Below, in pieces: positions 7,244 to 15,301 of a stretch of 45,624 bases of DNA (its first letter is position 1; every line of letters starts with the position of its first letter). The DNA is from an uncultured Nitrospirota bacterium. Lineage in GTDB: Bacteria; CG2-30-53-67. The translations under genes and the position numbers were made by a program. The notes under the pieces are model-generated. The model worked only from the letters and a program-made list of their open reading frames with translations. It was not told the origin of the DNA and searched no databases. The stretch lies in contig CAMYMF010000016.1 in NCBI GenBank assembly GCA_947259355.1, forward strand, positions 1 through 45,624. The letters run 5' to 3'.

Positions 7244-7389
7244 GGTGCCAGGTACATTGCATTTTGAATCGTTAACAAAGAATAGGAAGGCTGGCAATCG
7301 ATGGATATAATCGATGGATATATTGTGCTCCGCGGTGCCAGGTACTGCCCCGCGGTGCCAGGTACTGCTCGCATCTGGGTGCCAGGTAC
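7244..7389. repeat. Cluster of four GGTGCCAGGTAC repeats
   Basis: Four identical copies of the 12-mer GGTGCCAGGTAC at 7244-7255, 7334-7345, 7354-7365 and 7378-7389, all in the same orientation. Two carry the extended context CCGCGGTGCCAGGTACTGC. The same word flanks the tyrosine transposase gene at 12.4-13.9 kb, so these look like REP-type target sequences of that RAYT family, here without a transposase. They lie between the M48 protease gene and the HU gene, upstream of the HU promoter. Confidence 0.75.
7297..7322. repeat. 13-bp perfect tandem duplication
   Basis: ATCGATGGATATA occurs twice back to back (7297-7309 and 7310-7322), between the first and second GGTGCCAGGTAC copies. It may be a replication-slippage product; no function is evident. 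Confidence 0.7.
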
Positions 7390-9890: not shown

Positions 9891-10307
9891 ATGCCGGCCG
9901 TCAAGATTCATGCCCACCCCATTGCGGTACATTTTTCCAATGGCCTGGTCCCGGTGTCGATTTTCTTTCTTTTTGTCTTCGGAGTTACCCATGCCAGAGA
10001 CATGGAGATCGTCGCCTTCTATACGCTCGTCATTGGGACCCTGGGCTCCCTGCTGGCACTGGGAACGGGGCTTTTTGACTGGAAGAGGAACTACAAGGGC
10101 GCCTGGGTGCCGGTGTTCAAGAAGAAGCTAACCGCGGCGATTCTGTCGATCTTGGCGGGGACGGCCGCCTGTCTCCTGCGGTATGCGCAACCGGAGCTCC
10201 TATATTCGCTCGATTTGCTATCGATTATCTATGTGGTCTTGAATCTCTTCATGCTCGGCTGCGTGACGGTGGCCGGGTATCTGGGTGGCAAACTCGTCTT
10301 TCAATAG
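9891..10307 (+). CDS. DUF2231-like integral membrane protein
   Basis: A 138-residue protein with four predicted membrane helices. The N-terminus HAHPIAVHFSNGLVPVS matches the 'HP..VHFP.gL' opening of DUF2231 proteins, and GTGLFDW at the end of helix 2 is also typical. The conserved histidines near the membrane surface suggest metal or heme binding, but no function is established for the family. It lies 33 bp after the small ferritin-like gene and 75 bp before the FAD oxidoreductase. Confidence 0.72.
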   Translation: MPAVKIHAHPIAVHFSNGLVPVSIFFLFVFGVTHARDMEIVAFYTLVIGTLGSLLALGTGLFDWKRNYKGAWVPVFKKKLTAAILSILAGTAACLLRYAQPELLYSLDLLSIIYVVLNLFMLGCVTVAGYLGGKLVFQ

Positions 10308-10382: not shown

Positions 10383-11498
10383 ATGGGGCAACATCTCATC
10401 CTCGTCGGCGGTGGTCACGCACACATGATGACCCTGCTGCACGCCCGCGATTTTGTTCAACGGGGCCACCAGGTCACGCTCGTCGGGCCGACCCCCTATC
10501 ACTATTACTCCGGGATGGGCCCCGGCGTGCTCTCGGGAATCTACCGGCCGGAGGAGATCCGTTTTCATGTCCAGAAAATGATCGAAGATCGGGGCGGCAG
10601 GTTCGTTCAGGGAAAGGTCGTGCGGATTGACGGGTCCACTCGCACCCTGCATCTGGCGTCGGGTGAATCCCTGGTCTATGACGTGGCCTCCTTCAATACA
10701 GGGAGCGAGGTGCCGAAGGACCGGCTCCCGGTTGTCAGCGATGCGATGCTGACCGTGAAGCCGATCGAGAAGCTCATCGAAGGAAAGGGGCTCGTCCTGG
10801 AACTGCTGCGTGCGGGGGCACCCCGCCTCCTCGTGGTCGGCGGCGGCGCGGCCGGCGTGGAGATTGCGGGTAATCTGCATCGCCTCGTTCAAAAAGAAGG
10901 CAGGACGGCCGCCATTACCGTGGTCGCGGGCAAGCGCGTCCTTGCGGCCTTCCCGGAGAAGATGCGACGCCTGGCCTTAAAGTCCCTCACGGCACGGGGC
11001 ATTGACGTGATCGAGGGCGATTACGTCTCCAGGTTTGCCGATGGAAGGGCTCGACTGAACGATGAACGTGAGGTCCCAGCGGATGTTGTCTTCCTGGCGC
11101 TCGGGGTGAGGCCCTCCCCTATTTTCTCTGACTCGGGCCTTCCCACAGGCGAGGATGGCGGGCTTCTGGTGAATCATTATTTGCAATCCGTGGCCCATCC
11201 CGAGATCTTCGGCGGCGGCGATTGCATCTCTCTTGAGGGGAACCCACTGGATAAGGTTGGTGTCTATGCCTTCCGGGAGAACCCGATTCTCTTGCACAAC
11301 CTACTGGCTGCTCTGGAGGGGCGAGAAATGAACTCATTTCAGCCACAAAGAGAGTATTTGCTGATTCTTAATCTGGGAGACGGAAAGGGGATTTTTTGCC
11401 GTCGCCCTTGGGTCTGGCATGGACGACTCGCGTTTCGGATTAAGGACGCCATCGATCGCAAATTCATGCGGACATTCCAGGTTTCCGGCGAACACTAG
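10383..11498 (+). CDS. FAD-dependent pyridine nucleotide-disulfide oxidoreductase, SelD-N-terminal type (TIGR03169-like)
   Basis: A 371-residue flavoprotein. The N-terminal FAD-binding motif reads LILVGGGHAHMMTLL, where the GGGHAH form is characteristic of TIGR03169, the domain often fused to the N-terminus of selenophosphate synthetase (SelD). A second dinucleotide motif, LLVVGGGAAGVEIA (about residues 150-163), would bind NAD(P)H. The FAD-ribityl motif FGGGDC (about 279-284) is followed by a C-terminal dimerisation part. Related NDH-2/sulfide:quinone reductases pass electrons to quinones; here the substrate is unknown. It is 79 bp upstream of the predicted selenoprotein gene, which makes a selenium-linked role plausible. 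No strong ribosome site precedes ATG 10383. Confidence 0.8.
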   Translation: MGQHLILVGGGHAHMMTLLHARDFVQRGHQVTLVGPTPYHYYSGMGPGVLSGIYRPEEIRFHVQKMIEDRGGRFVQGKVVRIDGSTRTLHLASGESLVYDVASFNTGSEVPKDRLPVVSDAMLTVKPIEKLIEGKGLVLELLRAGAPRLLVVGGGAAGVEIAGNLHRLVQKEGRTAAITVVAGKRVLAAFPEKMRRLALKSLTARGIDVIEGDYVSRFADGRARLNDEREVPADVVFLALGVRPSPIFSDSGLPTGEDGGLLVNHYLQSVAHPEIFGGGDCISLEGNPLDKVGVYAFRENPILLHNLLAALEGREMNSFQPQREYLLILNLGDGKGIFCRRPWVWHGRLAFRIKDAIDRKFMRTFQVSGEH

Positions 11499-11577
11499 GG
11501 CTATGGTTCCCGAAAGATCGCTCAGCACATTCGGATCACACCGTAGGGTGTATGCCCTGCCAGCAAGGAGAAACAGC

Positions 11578-12405
11578 ATGGGACTGCGAGATTTCTTCAA
11601 ACCGGTGCCAACATGGAGCGCGGATCAGGTGCGGGAGTTTCTAAAGGGTCAAAATCCTGCGGAGTTCAACCTTGTCGATGTGCGGGAGCCCTCCGAATAT
11701 GAAAAGGAGCACCTCCCCGGTGCCAGGCACATTCCACTCGCCCAGCTCGCCCGACGCATCCGGGAGCTGGATCGGGAGAAGCCGACCATTGCCTATTGAC
11801 GCTCCGGTGTGCGCAGCCGGTCGGCTGTCGGACTGCTCGAAGGTTTCGGGTTTATGAAGGCCTACTCCATGGCTGGGGGCATCGACGCATGGAACGGGTT
11901 CACAGCGTCCGGTCCCCCCGAGATGGGCATGCTCGTCTTCGCAGGCACGGAAAGTCCTGAGGAGCTCATTGCCCTGTCCTGGGCCCTGGAAGAAGGCTCC
12001 CGCCGATTCTATGCTGCGGTGGCAGGTACCCTGCAGGACAAGGAGGCCGGAGCATTTTTCGAAAAACTGGTGCTCGCCGAGGAGAGTCATAAGAAGACCG
12101 TTGTTCAGCTTTACGGTGAAATCACCGGGAACGAATCCTCTTTAGCCCTCTCGGAGCGGGGGGACCTCCAGGACATCATGGAAGGTGGGGTGCGCGTCAG
12201 CGAAGCCCTCGAATGGGCGCAAGGCAAGGAAGCCGCCGATATTCTGCAATACGCCATGTCCCTGGAGATCAATGCCTACGACCTCTATCTCAAAATGGTG
12301 AAACGTTTTGAAGAGGAGCCACCGGCCACGATTTTTGAGACCTTGGCCAAAGAAGAAGAAGTGCACTTGAACAGAATGGCAGAGCTCTTGGGAACACGAA
12401 CGTGA
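11578..12405 (+). CDS. Predicted selenoprotein: rhodanese (Sec74) fused to a ferritin-like domain
   Basis: One 275-residue reading frame interrupted only by an in-frame TGA at 11797-11799. Residues about 8-112 are a rhodanese domain: VDVREPSEYEKEHLPGARHIPL, then IAY-(TGA)-RSGVRSR, then FGFMKAYSMAGGIDAWNG. The TGA falls exactly where rhodaneses have their catalytic Cys (YCRSGVRS), and the frame continues unchanged with full homology, so Sec at residue 74 is the best reading. Residues about 125-270 are a rubrerythrin-like four-helix domain with diiron motifs (EEGSRRFY, EESH, SLEINAYDLY, EEEVH). ATG 11578 follows AAGGAG with seven bases spacing. A SECIS-like hairpin follows the TGA. The alternative, a TGC-to-TGA mutation or sequencing error, is less likely given that hairpin. 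Confidence 0.85.
11803..11832 (+). promoter_or_regulatory. Bacterial SECIS element (GGUC apical loop)
   Basis: Directly downstream of the TGA, CAGCC (11814-11818) pairs perfectly with GGCTG (11823-11827) around the loop GGTC (11819-11822). A G-U pair extends the stem, and TCCG (11803-11806) pairs with CGGA (11829-11832) below an internal loop. The apical GGU starts 20 nt after the UGA. In E. coli fdhF the GGU starts 19 nt after it. SelB is known to recognise such a loop. The hairpin lies inside the coding region, as bacterial SECIS elements do. Confidence 0.75.
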
Positions 12406-12416
12406 CCCCCCTCCCC

Positions 12417-12498
12417 GGTGCCAGGTACGCATCGCATGGCTGTCCACTGACAGCGGTGCCAGGCACGATGTGGCGCTATGTATTGTGGTGCCAGGTAC
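12417..12498. repeat. Left flanking repeats of the RAYT element
   Basis: GGTGCCAGGTAC at 12417-12428 and 12487-12498 plus the variant GGTGCCAGGCAC at 12455-12466. All three have the same orientation, opposite to the cluster on the other side of the transposase. The first copy begins 12 bp after the selenoprotein stop. The remaining 12499-12716 shows no gene. Confidence 0.75.
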
Positions 12499-12716: not shown

Positions 12717-13619
12717 TTACCTTGAAAGTGCGTAGAGGCTCTCCGCACCGAATACACGTCTTGGCACACACTCTCGTCGGGTGCACAGTGCAGGCTGTAT
12801 TTGTGCATAGAACTCCCGAACAAACCGTCGGGAACCGAGCACAATGCTCTGGGTGAAATACTGGCACCGATGACGCAGCAGCGCGGCCTTCTTAAGTCTG
12901 TATCCCGCTTGTTCTTCTTCCTCTAGTATAGCCGCTGGAATAGCCCGTTTGCCATCTCTCCTGTTCAGGCTGCCGGCTTCATAGACGAATCTGCGGTAGC
13001 GATCCACTCTACCGGTTGAATCCCCATAGGGTTCTGGCAGGTCCAATGAGAGAAAGCCACCCCGGTTCCCGCACTGCATGTGGTAGCCGAGCCCACAGAA
13101 CCGATATGTTTCAGGTCGATCGACCAGGTTTGCCCGTAACGCGTTGAGATCGACATACGCCATGCAGTTAATGAGGGCTTCGTCCCGCTCAAGCACTACG
13201 CTCTCGAACCGGCCTGACCAAAGGGTCCCTTTACGATCGTGTTGCTTGTTGTACCAATCGGAGAATCCCTTCTTGATCTGCTTCATGAATTCAGACAGAT
13301 CGGACCAGCGTTTTCGAAGTGTGGGAATCTCCTCGTCAGAGAAGTCTTTGCGGTTGCCGTACCGACGCCGAAAGCGTCGCTTAACCTCCTCGTCGGAAAA
13401 AGAATCACCATCCTGCATCTGCACAATCATGTGGAAATGGTTAGACATAATGCAGAAACCGAAGACTTTGACAAAAAAAATCTGGCTCAGCTCCCGGGTC
13501 CGATCGAGCAAGTACTGTTTTTCCAGGTCAGCCAGCAGAAACTGCTGGCCGGCGATGCGCGAGTGGACATGATAACACTGACCAGGTGCCTTGATGGCGG
13601 ATCTTGGGATTCTCGGCAT
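12717..13619 (-). CDS. REP-associated tyrosine transposase (Y1_Tnp/RAYT)
   Basis: A 300-residue single-strand transposase of the HUH class. Features: the start AIKAPGQCYHVHSRIAG; the metal-binding HUH motif in FCIMSNHFHMIVQ (about residues 55-67); and YVDLNALRANLVDRP (about residues 157-171), which holds the candidate catalytic Tyr. The lysine/arginine-rich middle (SDEEVKRRFRRRYGNRKDFSD) is typical of the 'transposase' form found in environmental bacteria. The C-terminal tail is longer than in IS200 TnpA. ATG 13619 has an AGGAGG ribosome site. It is probably active at the surrounding GGTGCCAGGTAC repeats. Confidence 0.88.
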   Translation of the reverse strand: MPRIPRSAIKAPGQCYHVHSRIAGQQFLLADLEKQYLLDRTRELSQIFFVKVFGFCIMSNHFHMIVQMQDGDSFSDEEVKRRFRRRYGNRKDFSDEEIPTLRKRWSDLSEFMKQIKKGFSDWYNKQHDRKGTLWSGRFESVVLERDEALINCMAYVDLNALRANLVDRPETYRFCGLGYHMQCGNRGGFLSLDLPEPYGDSTGRVDRYRRFVYEAGSLNRRDGKRAIPAAILEEEEQAGYRLKKAALLRHRCQYFTQSIVLGSRRFVREFYAQIQPALCTRRECVPRRVFGAESLYALSR

Positions 13620-13782: not shown

Positions 13783-13882
13783 GTACCTGGTACTGCGCCG
13801 TGTACCTGGTACTGCGGCGTGTAAACGTACCTGGCACTGGGTCCGAGCGAAAACGTGGCTGGGCGAAGACGTACCTGGCACC
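13783..13882. repeat. Right flanking repeats of the RAYT element
   Basis: GTACCTGGTAC at 13783-13793 and 13802-13812, GTACCTGGCAC at 13827-13837 and GTACCTGGCACC at 13871-13882. These are the reverse complement of the left cluster. GTACCTGGTAC is itself a perfect odd palindrome (GTACC-T-GGTAC). The last copy ends 16 bp before the stop of the rhodanese-hydrolase gene. Confidence 0.75.
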
Positions 13883-13897: not shown

Positions 13898-15070
13898 TCA
13901 GTGGGGCGCGGCGGCGCACTCGTTCTTGCCCAGTTCCATCTCCGAGGCCTCGTCCTCGTCAACGGTCTTCTTCTGCAGGTTAACGAGGCGTATGTCGGCG
14001 TAAATGGGCGGCTGGGATTTGATCTGCGTCTGGATGTAGCGGACGAAGCCCTCCTCATCGCCGATTTGCAGCGCAGCGTTTGTTTTGCGAAGCTTCCCGA
14101 GGGTTCCCATGACGAGTCCCTCGCCGTTCATTTCAGCGGGATTGCTGAAATGGGTGGGCAATACCACCAGATCGTCGCGGTAGTCTTTGAGTTTCCGAAA
14201 GAGCGAGTCATAGAGCATATGGGCCCACGCCACCACCTTTCCGCCCAGATCGGGCCGTCCCACGCCATCGACGAAGAGGGTATCCCCCGTGAGCAAGTAC
14301 TGATCGTCCACGAGATATGTCGTGCTGCCCGGCGTGTGGCCCGGCAGAAAGAGCGCCATTACCCGAATCCGACTCTTTCCGATTTCGATGATCTGCCCAT
14401 CGGTCAGCGGGGCACGCTTCAAAGGTGCATCCTCACTGTCGGCGCTTTGTATAAAATAGGTGGCGCCCGTCGCTTGCGCAAGGGCCGGTCCCCCCGAGAT
14501 ATGATCGGCGTGCAGGTGCGTATCGAGAACCGTGGTGATCCTGGTGCGGTGCTCCTTGGCCAGATCGAGGTAAGTCTGAATGTGGCGGCCGGGGTCGACC
14601 ACCGCCGCTTCACCGTCTGAGATCAGCATATAGGAAAGACACCCCTTTCCCACGCGATTGATCTGGAAAAAGAGGCCCCCCTTGCCTGCCTTCGGATAGC
14701 CCGGAATCTTCCGGGCGGCGTAGTAGTCCCCCCAACCGACGGTGCCGCCTTTGAGGTTCACCGCTTTGTAGCCCCGCTGGTTCAGCAGATCCGCCACGTA
14801 GGCGGAAGAGTCGCCTTTCGCACAGACCACTGCGACGGGCCTTCCCTTGGGAATCCCTGCAATGATTTCGTCCTCCTGATCGAAAAAATCGAAATAGGGT
14901 ATGTGCAGCGTCTCGGGGGTCTTCTTCCCTTCCAGTTTCCAGCGCTCATATTCGATGTCGTTGCGCACATCCAGGAGGAGCCAGTCCTCTTTGCCGTCCA
15001 GTAACTCCCGCAGCTTTTCCGGACCGATCGTTCGAACACGATTCCGGACATCTCCGATTTCATCACGCAT
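13898..15070 (-). CDS. Rhodanese-metallo-beta-lactamase fusion (persulfide dioxygenase-like)
   Basis: A 390-residue protein. Residues about 10-115 form a rhodanese domain with an intact active-site loop (VVCAKGDSSA, Cys 83). Residues about 130-365 form an ETHE1/glyoxalase II-type hydrolase domain with the zinc/iron motif THLHADH (about 184-190), PGHTPGST, and TGDTLFVDGVGRPDL. Related enzymes oxidise glutathione persulfide to sulfite, and the rhodanese moves the sulfane sulfur. The rhodanese is at the N-terminus here, whereas well-known fusions such as CstB or PRF carry it at the C-terminus. ATG 15070 follows GAGGAG; the frame also allows a TTG at 15130 with weaker support. It is divergent from the PEP carboxylase gene. 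Confidence 0.85.
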   Translation of the reverse strand: MRDEIGDVRNRVRTIGPEKLRELLDGKEDWLLLDVRNDIEYERWKLEGKKTPETLHIPYFDFFDQEDEIIAGIPKGRPVAVVCAKGDSSAYVADLLNQRGYKAVNLKGGTVGWGDYYAARKIPGYPKAGKGGLFFQINRVGKGCLSYMLISDGEAAVVDPGRHIQTYLDLAKEHRTRITTVLDTHLHADHISGGPALAQATGATYFIQSADSEDAPLKRAPLTDGQIIEIGKSRIRVMALFLPGHTPGSTTYLVDDQYLLTGDTLFVDGVGRPDLGGKVVAWAHMLYDSLFRKLKDYRDDLVVLPTHFSNPAEMNGEGLVMGTLGKLRKTNAALQIGDEEGFVRYIQTQIKSQPPIYADIRLVNLQKKTVDEDEASEMELGKNECAAAPH

Positions 15071-15301
15071 GATCCCAATCTCCTCTTGTATTTTGACGAA
15101 GGCGCTTGTCCGCGGAGTCCCTGTTTGCAAGACGTCTCCCTATATATATGGATGCGAGACTTTCTGTCAACCATTCCCTAATAAAAAGCTTGAAGTTAGT
15201 TACATATATTATTGTATTATATGCTTTTTTAACTCCTAGTATCAGGCCGGTTGCTTTTCGTGCAGATCTTGTTTACCATCAGACGGACTTGGGAGGAAAT
15301 T
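15071..15301. other. AT-rich divergent promoter region
   Basis: This stretch lies between the divergent rhodanese-hydrolase and PEP carboxylase genes. The part from 15140 to 15235 is strongly AT-rich (for example TTACATATATTATTGTATTATATG), unlike the GC-rich surroundings. No pair of -35/-10 boxes stands out with proper spacing; TTGAAG (15190) and TATTAT (15215) are 19 nt apart. Both promoters probably lie here. Confidence 0.4.

Follow-up and report, generated by a model that had tools for sequence, protein, structure and literature searches.

The genes considered here lie in a window (the whole stretch of DNA analysed, 45,624 nucleotides) of a draft genome that is assembled in 94 contigs and is approximately 90% complete. 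The features on which the discussion draws are a rhodanese–ferritin fusion gene interrupted by an in-frame TGA, its neighbors and a dispersed repeat:

7244–7389, 11719–11730, 12417–12498 and 13871–13882: copies of GGTGCCAGGYAC, flanking the fusion and its neighbors
9891–10307, plus strand: DUF2231 membrane protein (Pfam), upstream of the oxidoreductase
10383–11498, plus strand: FAD/NAD(P)H pyridine nucleotide-disulfide oxidoreductase (Pyr_redox_2, 5.8e-32; TIGR03169, 8.9e-82)
11565–11570, plus strand: Shine-Dalgarno-like AAGGAG, 7 nt before the ATG at 11578 (read from the sequence)
11578–12405, plus strand: gene of the rhodanese–ferritin fusion, a predicted selenoprotein of 275 residues, plus stop
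11620–11895, plus strand: rhodanese domain with the six-residue active-site loop U-R-S-G-V-R (PF00581, E 1.5e-20, 74 bits)
11797–11799, plus strand: in-frame TGA in place of the catalytic Cys, predicted selenocysteine (Sec) codon for residue 74 (homologue codon census)
11813–11828, plus strand: predicted SECIS hairpin with a 6-pair stem (one pair being G-U) and GGUC as its apical loop, kept in Sec but not in Cys homologues
11947–12402, plus strand: ferritin-like four-helix domain (PF02915, Rubrerythrin; E 3.1e-11, 44 bits against a cut-off of 22.8)
12717–13619, minus strand: IS200/Y1-type transposase gene beside copies of GGTGCCAGGYAC
13898–15130, minus strand: rhodanese/metallo-beta-lactamase (MBL) protein, a persulfide-dioxygenase-like fusion (PF00581, 3.3e-10; PF00753, 1.2e-18)

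The fusion frame opens with the ATG at 11578 and runs for 275 codons (11578–12402, plus strand) to a terminal TGA stop at 12403–12405. Its sole internal stop is the TGA at 11797–11799, which sits within the segment IAY-U-RSGVR, i.e., in the six-residue catalytic loop of rhodaneses. A preliminary description of this DNA had proposed one frame open save for this TGA, had placed the TGA at the rhodanese active-site Cys and had seen homology continue in the same frame on both sides. All three points are upheld: the frame can be read from 11578 to 12405, the Pfam Rhodanese match spans the TGA and is followed by the Rubrerythrin match, and homologues have a Cys codon at this place. The anticipated split also occurs, in that standard, mechanical ORF calling divides the gene into 11419–11799 and 11809–12405, the way in which gene callers blind to Sec break the Sec forms of the fusion. 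An Rfam search of the window returned no match, none of the plasmid records spans the fusion, and a close-relative search of named genome contigs gave weak rhodanese matches only.

Among 121 homologues of the fusion the active-site codon is TGA in 40, TGC in 63 and TGT in 18, with no other codon and, in particular, neither TAA nor TAG; the Cys codons that the preliminary description had suggested looking for in relatives are therefore present in 81/121. Within the window’s phylum the fusion occurs in 5 of 8 genomes, of which 4 have the UGA; the fifth belongs to the same genus as the source genome (G001), and its contig stops short of the UGA codon. Same-family relatives that span the codon have TGA in every case (3/3, at 48–52% identity), and a second small phylum (12 genomes) contributes 4 further UGA members. 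In a large phylum of which 395 genomes were sampled evenly, the fusion is found in its Sec or Cys form in 107, which adds a common architecture to those of the known selenoproteins. When the Sec/Cys state is mapped on a protein tree (118 rows), a minimum of 14 changes is required and at least 9 are forced by supported branches, a natural experiment on what Sec gains a sulfurtransferase. SelB is present in all five Cys-form genomes tested, so Cys in these genomes is not simply a consequence of the loss of the Sec system. In G293 (L044/L054) the bases around the active-site codon are N, which makes the codon unreadable.

Selection at the protein level extends past the TGA. Seven pairs of Sec genes were compared, and each has dN/dS below 1 both upstream and downstream of the UGA, although in the near-identical pair L120/L122 it is only weakly so upstream of the UGA (0.025/0.039). 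For the part downstream of the UGA, the comparison of the window gene with its same-genus relative G001 gives a dN of 0.096 and a dS of 1.18. The genome also possesses the machinery for decoding: a tRNA-Sec with anticodon TCA, SelB (404 bits), SelA (630 bits) and SelD are all present, i.e., the four components for which the preliminary description had proposed a search, and both outcomes that it had named as fatal to the Sec reading, absence of selB and tRNA-Sec and a mere sequencing error at the codon, are excluded. Nearly all of the fusion genomes tested likewise have SelB and SelD. The N-terminal piece of SelD in the source genome has its own in-frame TGA; this Sec-type SelD (G000, C32:6674–7393) lies in two overlapping frames, possibly through an assembly frameshift.

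That the TGA is a true stop, in a pseudogene, by sequencing error or between two short genes, is scarcely credible: the two called ORFs and the incomplete, 94-contig state of the genome speak for it, but a lone error or a decaying gene cannot produce a pattern of TGA or Cys codons only, recurring at one codon in 121 genes, and both the purifying selection past the TGA and the Sec machinery stand against it. Two other TGA codons were considered as Sec codons and rejected. In a second rhodanese of the same genome (C43, L003), which is of Cys type, the TGA is simply the stop codon that ends the gene, and in L036 the flagged TGA is likewise a terminal stop, the member having Cys.

The hairpin downstream of the UGA provides a further line of evidence. 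In the window gene its loop begins approximately 19 nt after the UGA and is small, with a G (GGUC), in keeping with what a SECIS requires of its apical loop, namely small size, a G and a position shortly after the UGA. The Sec genes of the first two phyla share CGCAGCCG, followed by 2–3 bases that vary and by a right arm of GCTGC type, approximately 13–29 nt after the UGA; the right arm of L024, unlike the others, is GCGGC. An uninterrupted stem of at least 6 bp in either of two registers is found in 33/40 Sec genes vs. 5/81 Cys genes. Among genes with CGC-AGC as left arm, the Ala codon of the right arm (+9) is GCT in 32/34 Sec but 3/26 Cys genes, against a background share of GCT among Ala codons of 13% across the Sec genes, and the six Sec genes with CGG-AGC or AGG-AGC retain a hairpin by pairing in a different register, GGCTC being the matching arm. 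Because the two registers were picked after the Sec sequences had been viewed and the genes are related, such that the rows are not independent, p-values for the hairpin overstate its certainty. Folded alone, the window hairpin is no better than shuffled sequences (z 0.35; p 0.39), and the weight lies in the comparison of Sec with Cys genes: since it is kept in the former and not in the latter, the hairpin is very probably the SECIS. Two Cys members, L056 (G221) and L101 (G511), retain a hairpin of SECIS type, which suggests a recent change from Sec to Cys.

The same in-frame UGA in 40 of 121 relatives with Cys in all others, the Sec machinery, the conserved hairpin and the protein-level selection after the UGA together make it highly likely, as judged from comparison of sequences, that the gene encodes a selenoprotein in which Sec occupies the catalytic position of a rhodanese domain joined to a ferritin-like diiron domain. 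An AlphaFold2 model of the fusion (13 sequences; pLDDT 86, pTM 0.84) has two domains. The modeled rhodanese domain matches rhodaneses in the PDB with Z up to 18 (3tp9), and the modeled four-helix bundle matches ferritins and bacterioferritins with Z of approximately 15. The rhodanese loop C/U-x-x-G-x-R is invariant or nearly so in the homologues. In the ferritin-like domain the predicted diiron ligands follow the pattern E, ExxH, E, ExxH (two ExxH and two Glu), and E138, E168, H171, E230, E260 and H263 are each kept in 115–117 of 117 homologues. The attachment of a ferritin-like diiron domain to the rhodanese, claimed in the preliminary description from short motifs, is thus borne out by the PF02915 match, the full ligand set and the fold model. 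There is strong support for the predicted Sec decoding, fold and diiron ligands; the role of Sec74 as nucleophile and the binding of iron by the C-terminal domain would follow from what is established for the two families. The Pfam scan found no rubredoxin FeS4 domain, and the protein, which ends after the bundle, is in this respect unlike a classical rubrerythrin. Twenty-six of the 38 near-complete Sec members have no further Cys. Sec74 therefore probably lacks a resolving partner in the same chain, which favors an external reductant or sulfur acceptor.

A 2026 review (PMC13188914) lists rhodanese selenoproteins of at least five forms and mentions none of them with a ferritin-like or rubrerythrin domain. 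In forms 2 and 4 (PF00581, motif UxxG) Sec is apparently at the catalytic Cys, in the same U-x-x-G as in the fusion. The UxxG motif of form 2 (representative MBM9537886.1) is present in the fusion, and form 2, which is described by PF00581 only, may be the same family described by its rhodanese domain alone; here it is set against the fusion by description. The resemblance to form 5, TsoB, a DsbD fusion with two Sec, is weak. The available models of rhodanese selenoproteins scored below their cut-offs (NF041203, 19.9 vs. 115 bits; NF045694, TsoB, 16 vs. 805 bits), no NCBIfam model spans the whole fusion, and in the open-access literature we found no description of a rhodanese selenoprotein fused to ferritin or rubrerythrin. 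What appears to be new is the joining of a catalytic Sec and a diiron ferritin-like domain on a single chain, rhodanese selenoproteins themselves being already known. The 81 Cys-type PF00581–PF02915 fusions found share architecture, ligands and active site with the Sec fusion, but have Cys for Sec and generally no conserved hairpin.

Other relatives are more distant. Rubrerythrins and ferritin-like diiron proteins share the four-helix fold and the ligand pattern, but the protein of the window has no rubredoxin and is fused to a rhodanese. Persulfide reductases in which a pyridine nucleotide-disulfide oxidoreductase is paired with a rhodanese are known (PDB 3nta, 6pfz; PMC7969121). In these NADH-dependent enzymes and in CoADR-RHD (3nta, 3icr, 6pfz) the two form one fused chain, whereas in the window they are separate adjacent genes, the rhodanese having Sec and an attached diiron domain. 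PRF (5ve3) and Rho-PDO also fuse a rhodanese to a non-heme iron domain, but theirs is a mononuclear metallo-beta-lactamase and that of the window a ferritin-like diiron domain. Despite a similar logic, the fusion belongs to neither the persulfide reductases nor the persulfide dioxygenase–rhodanese fusions.

The oxidoreductase ends 79 nt upstream of the fusion and is its probable operon partner. Its top NCBIfam match is TIGR03169 (Nterm_to_SelD), over the full length, with 275 bits against a cut-off of 310, and by this score it is related to TIGR03169 yet not filed as a member. A TIGR03169-type domain fused to SelD has been proposed to reduce a selenium compound that serves as the SelD substrate (Zhang 2008, PMC2432076), and NADH-oxidoreductase fusions are the most common and a widespread type of SelD fusion (Mariotti 2015, PMC4561486). 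In neighbor clustering the oxidoreductase is by far the commonest neighbor of the fusion: a homologue adjoins it in 30/121 loci, upstream or downstream and always co-oriented, and most loci are without this partner. Adjacency is more frequent in Sec (19/40) than in Cys loci (11/81; Fisher p 1e-4), but with phylogenetically independent pairs, which have low power, the association is not significant; as the signal is lost once phylogeny is considered, we do not claim it. In no locus examined do the fusion and oxidoreductase genes adjoin selD. A ferritin-like half without a recognisable rhodanese, directly after the same oxidoreductase (L053:6815–7372, G290), appears to be a truncated or rearranged member.

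Further neighbors recur less regularly. Homologues of DUF2231 are near four Sec loci, not always adjoining the fusion. The rhodanese/MBL gene lies 1.5 kb downstream of the fusion, with the IS200-type transposase gene between them, and its link to the fusion is uncertain; it matches Blh (NF040641) weakly and resembles the uncharacterised Rho-PDO fusions of cable bacteria (PMC13047784). Two Cys members adjoin genes of the metallo-beta-lactamase family whose matches to persulfide-dioxygenase-type models fall short of the cut-off. A membrane hydroxylase/sterol-desaturase-like gene, whose family was assigned by eye, is near the fusion in 12 loci (e.g., L134, L123), mostly just upstream and at Sec and Cys loci alike.

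From these parts we tentatively propose a persulfide mechanism. The UGA at 11797–11799 is very probably decoded by tRNA-Sec and SelB, directed by the downstream hairpin, to yield the 275-residue protein, in which Sec74 of the N-terminal rhodanese would be the sulfur-accepting nucleophile and the C-terminal four-helix domain would hold two irons by means of E138, E168, H171, E230, E260 and H263. Sec74 would accept sulfane sulfur from a persulfide or polysulfide to form a Se–S adduct. Reduction of this adduct would yield sulfide, the electrons coming from the neighboring NAD(P)H/FAD oxidoreductase at loci that have it, or the sulfur would be handed on. The diiron domain would reduce O2 or H2O2, or oxidise the bound sulfur. 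The result would be a coupling of sulfur handling to oxygen defense in presumed anaerobes, where Sec would offer a faster nucleophile that is more easily regenerated after oxidation. The preliminary description had put forward a persulfide- or selenium-processing enzyme that responds to oxygen or peroxide; from domain content and gene neighbors such a role is plausible. Selenium and peroxide as alternative substrates would fit the same parts of the fusion.

An unlikely but credible alternative is a selenol peroxidase or rubrerythrin-like scavenger of O2 and H2O2, in which Sec74 would reduce peroxide or sulfenate, the diiron center would reduce peroxide and the oxidoreductase would give electrons. 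The rubrerythrin-family diiron domain with its conserved ligands is consistent with this, as is the flavin NAD(P)H oxidoreductase at the 30 loci, but the intact rhodanese fold and U/C-x-x-G-x-R loop point to sulfur transfer, rubredoxin is missing, and the Sec members without other Cys have nothing of that kind to resolve a selenenic acid.

It is improbable that the rhodanese serves as a selenium donor, bearing reduced selenium for SelD while a SelD-type oxidoreductase keeps it reduced and the diiron domain removes the oxygen that destroys selenide. The affinity of the partner to TIGR03169, a domain elsewhere fused to SelD and predicted to make its substrate, the wide occurrence of such SelD–NADH fusions, and the presence of SelB and SelD in nearly all fusion genomes tested argue for it. 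Against it are the TIGR03169 score below cut-off, the lack of selD beside the two genes in the loci examined, the restriction of the partner to a quarter-share of loci (30/121) and the fact that Sec itself is the sole direct sign of selenium on the rhodanese. In its most elaborate form, an oxygen-protected module in which a Sec rhodanese carries the chalcogen, the diiron domain removes O2 or peroxide and a SelD-related flavoprotein is the reductant, possibly feeding SelD, we regard the proposal as very doubtful; a flavoprotein of the SelD-fusion type does offer a testable route to identifying the reductant or the carrier of the SelD substrate.

It is equally improbable that the diiron center acts like a persulfide dioxygenase, oxidising rhodanese-bound sulfur to sulfite or thiosulfate. 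The logic would be that of the PRF fusion (PDB 5ve3), and persulfide-dioxygenase-like MBL genes are found next to two Cys members and in the vicinity of the window gene, but the iron domain here is of ferritin type, a fold unrelated to that of the mononuclear MBL dioxygenases, and most carriers belong to lineages that are likely anaerobic. The persulfide mechanism with Sec74 as sulfur carrier remains our preferred, if tentative, reading.

The window also contains nine exact copies of GGTGCCAGGYAC, where 0.01 would be expected. Together with the transposase gene at 12717–13619 they suggest a REP/RAYT-like repeat system, of which one copy (11719–11730) falls on the conserved LPGA motif encoded in the rhodanese part of the fusion gene.
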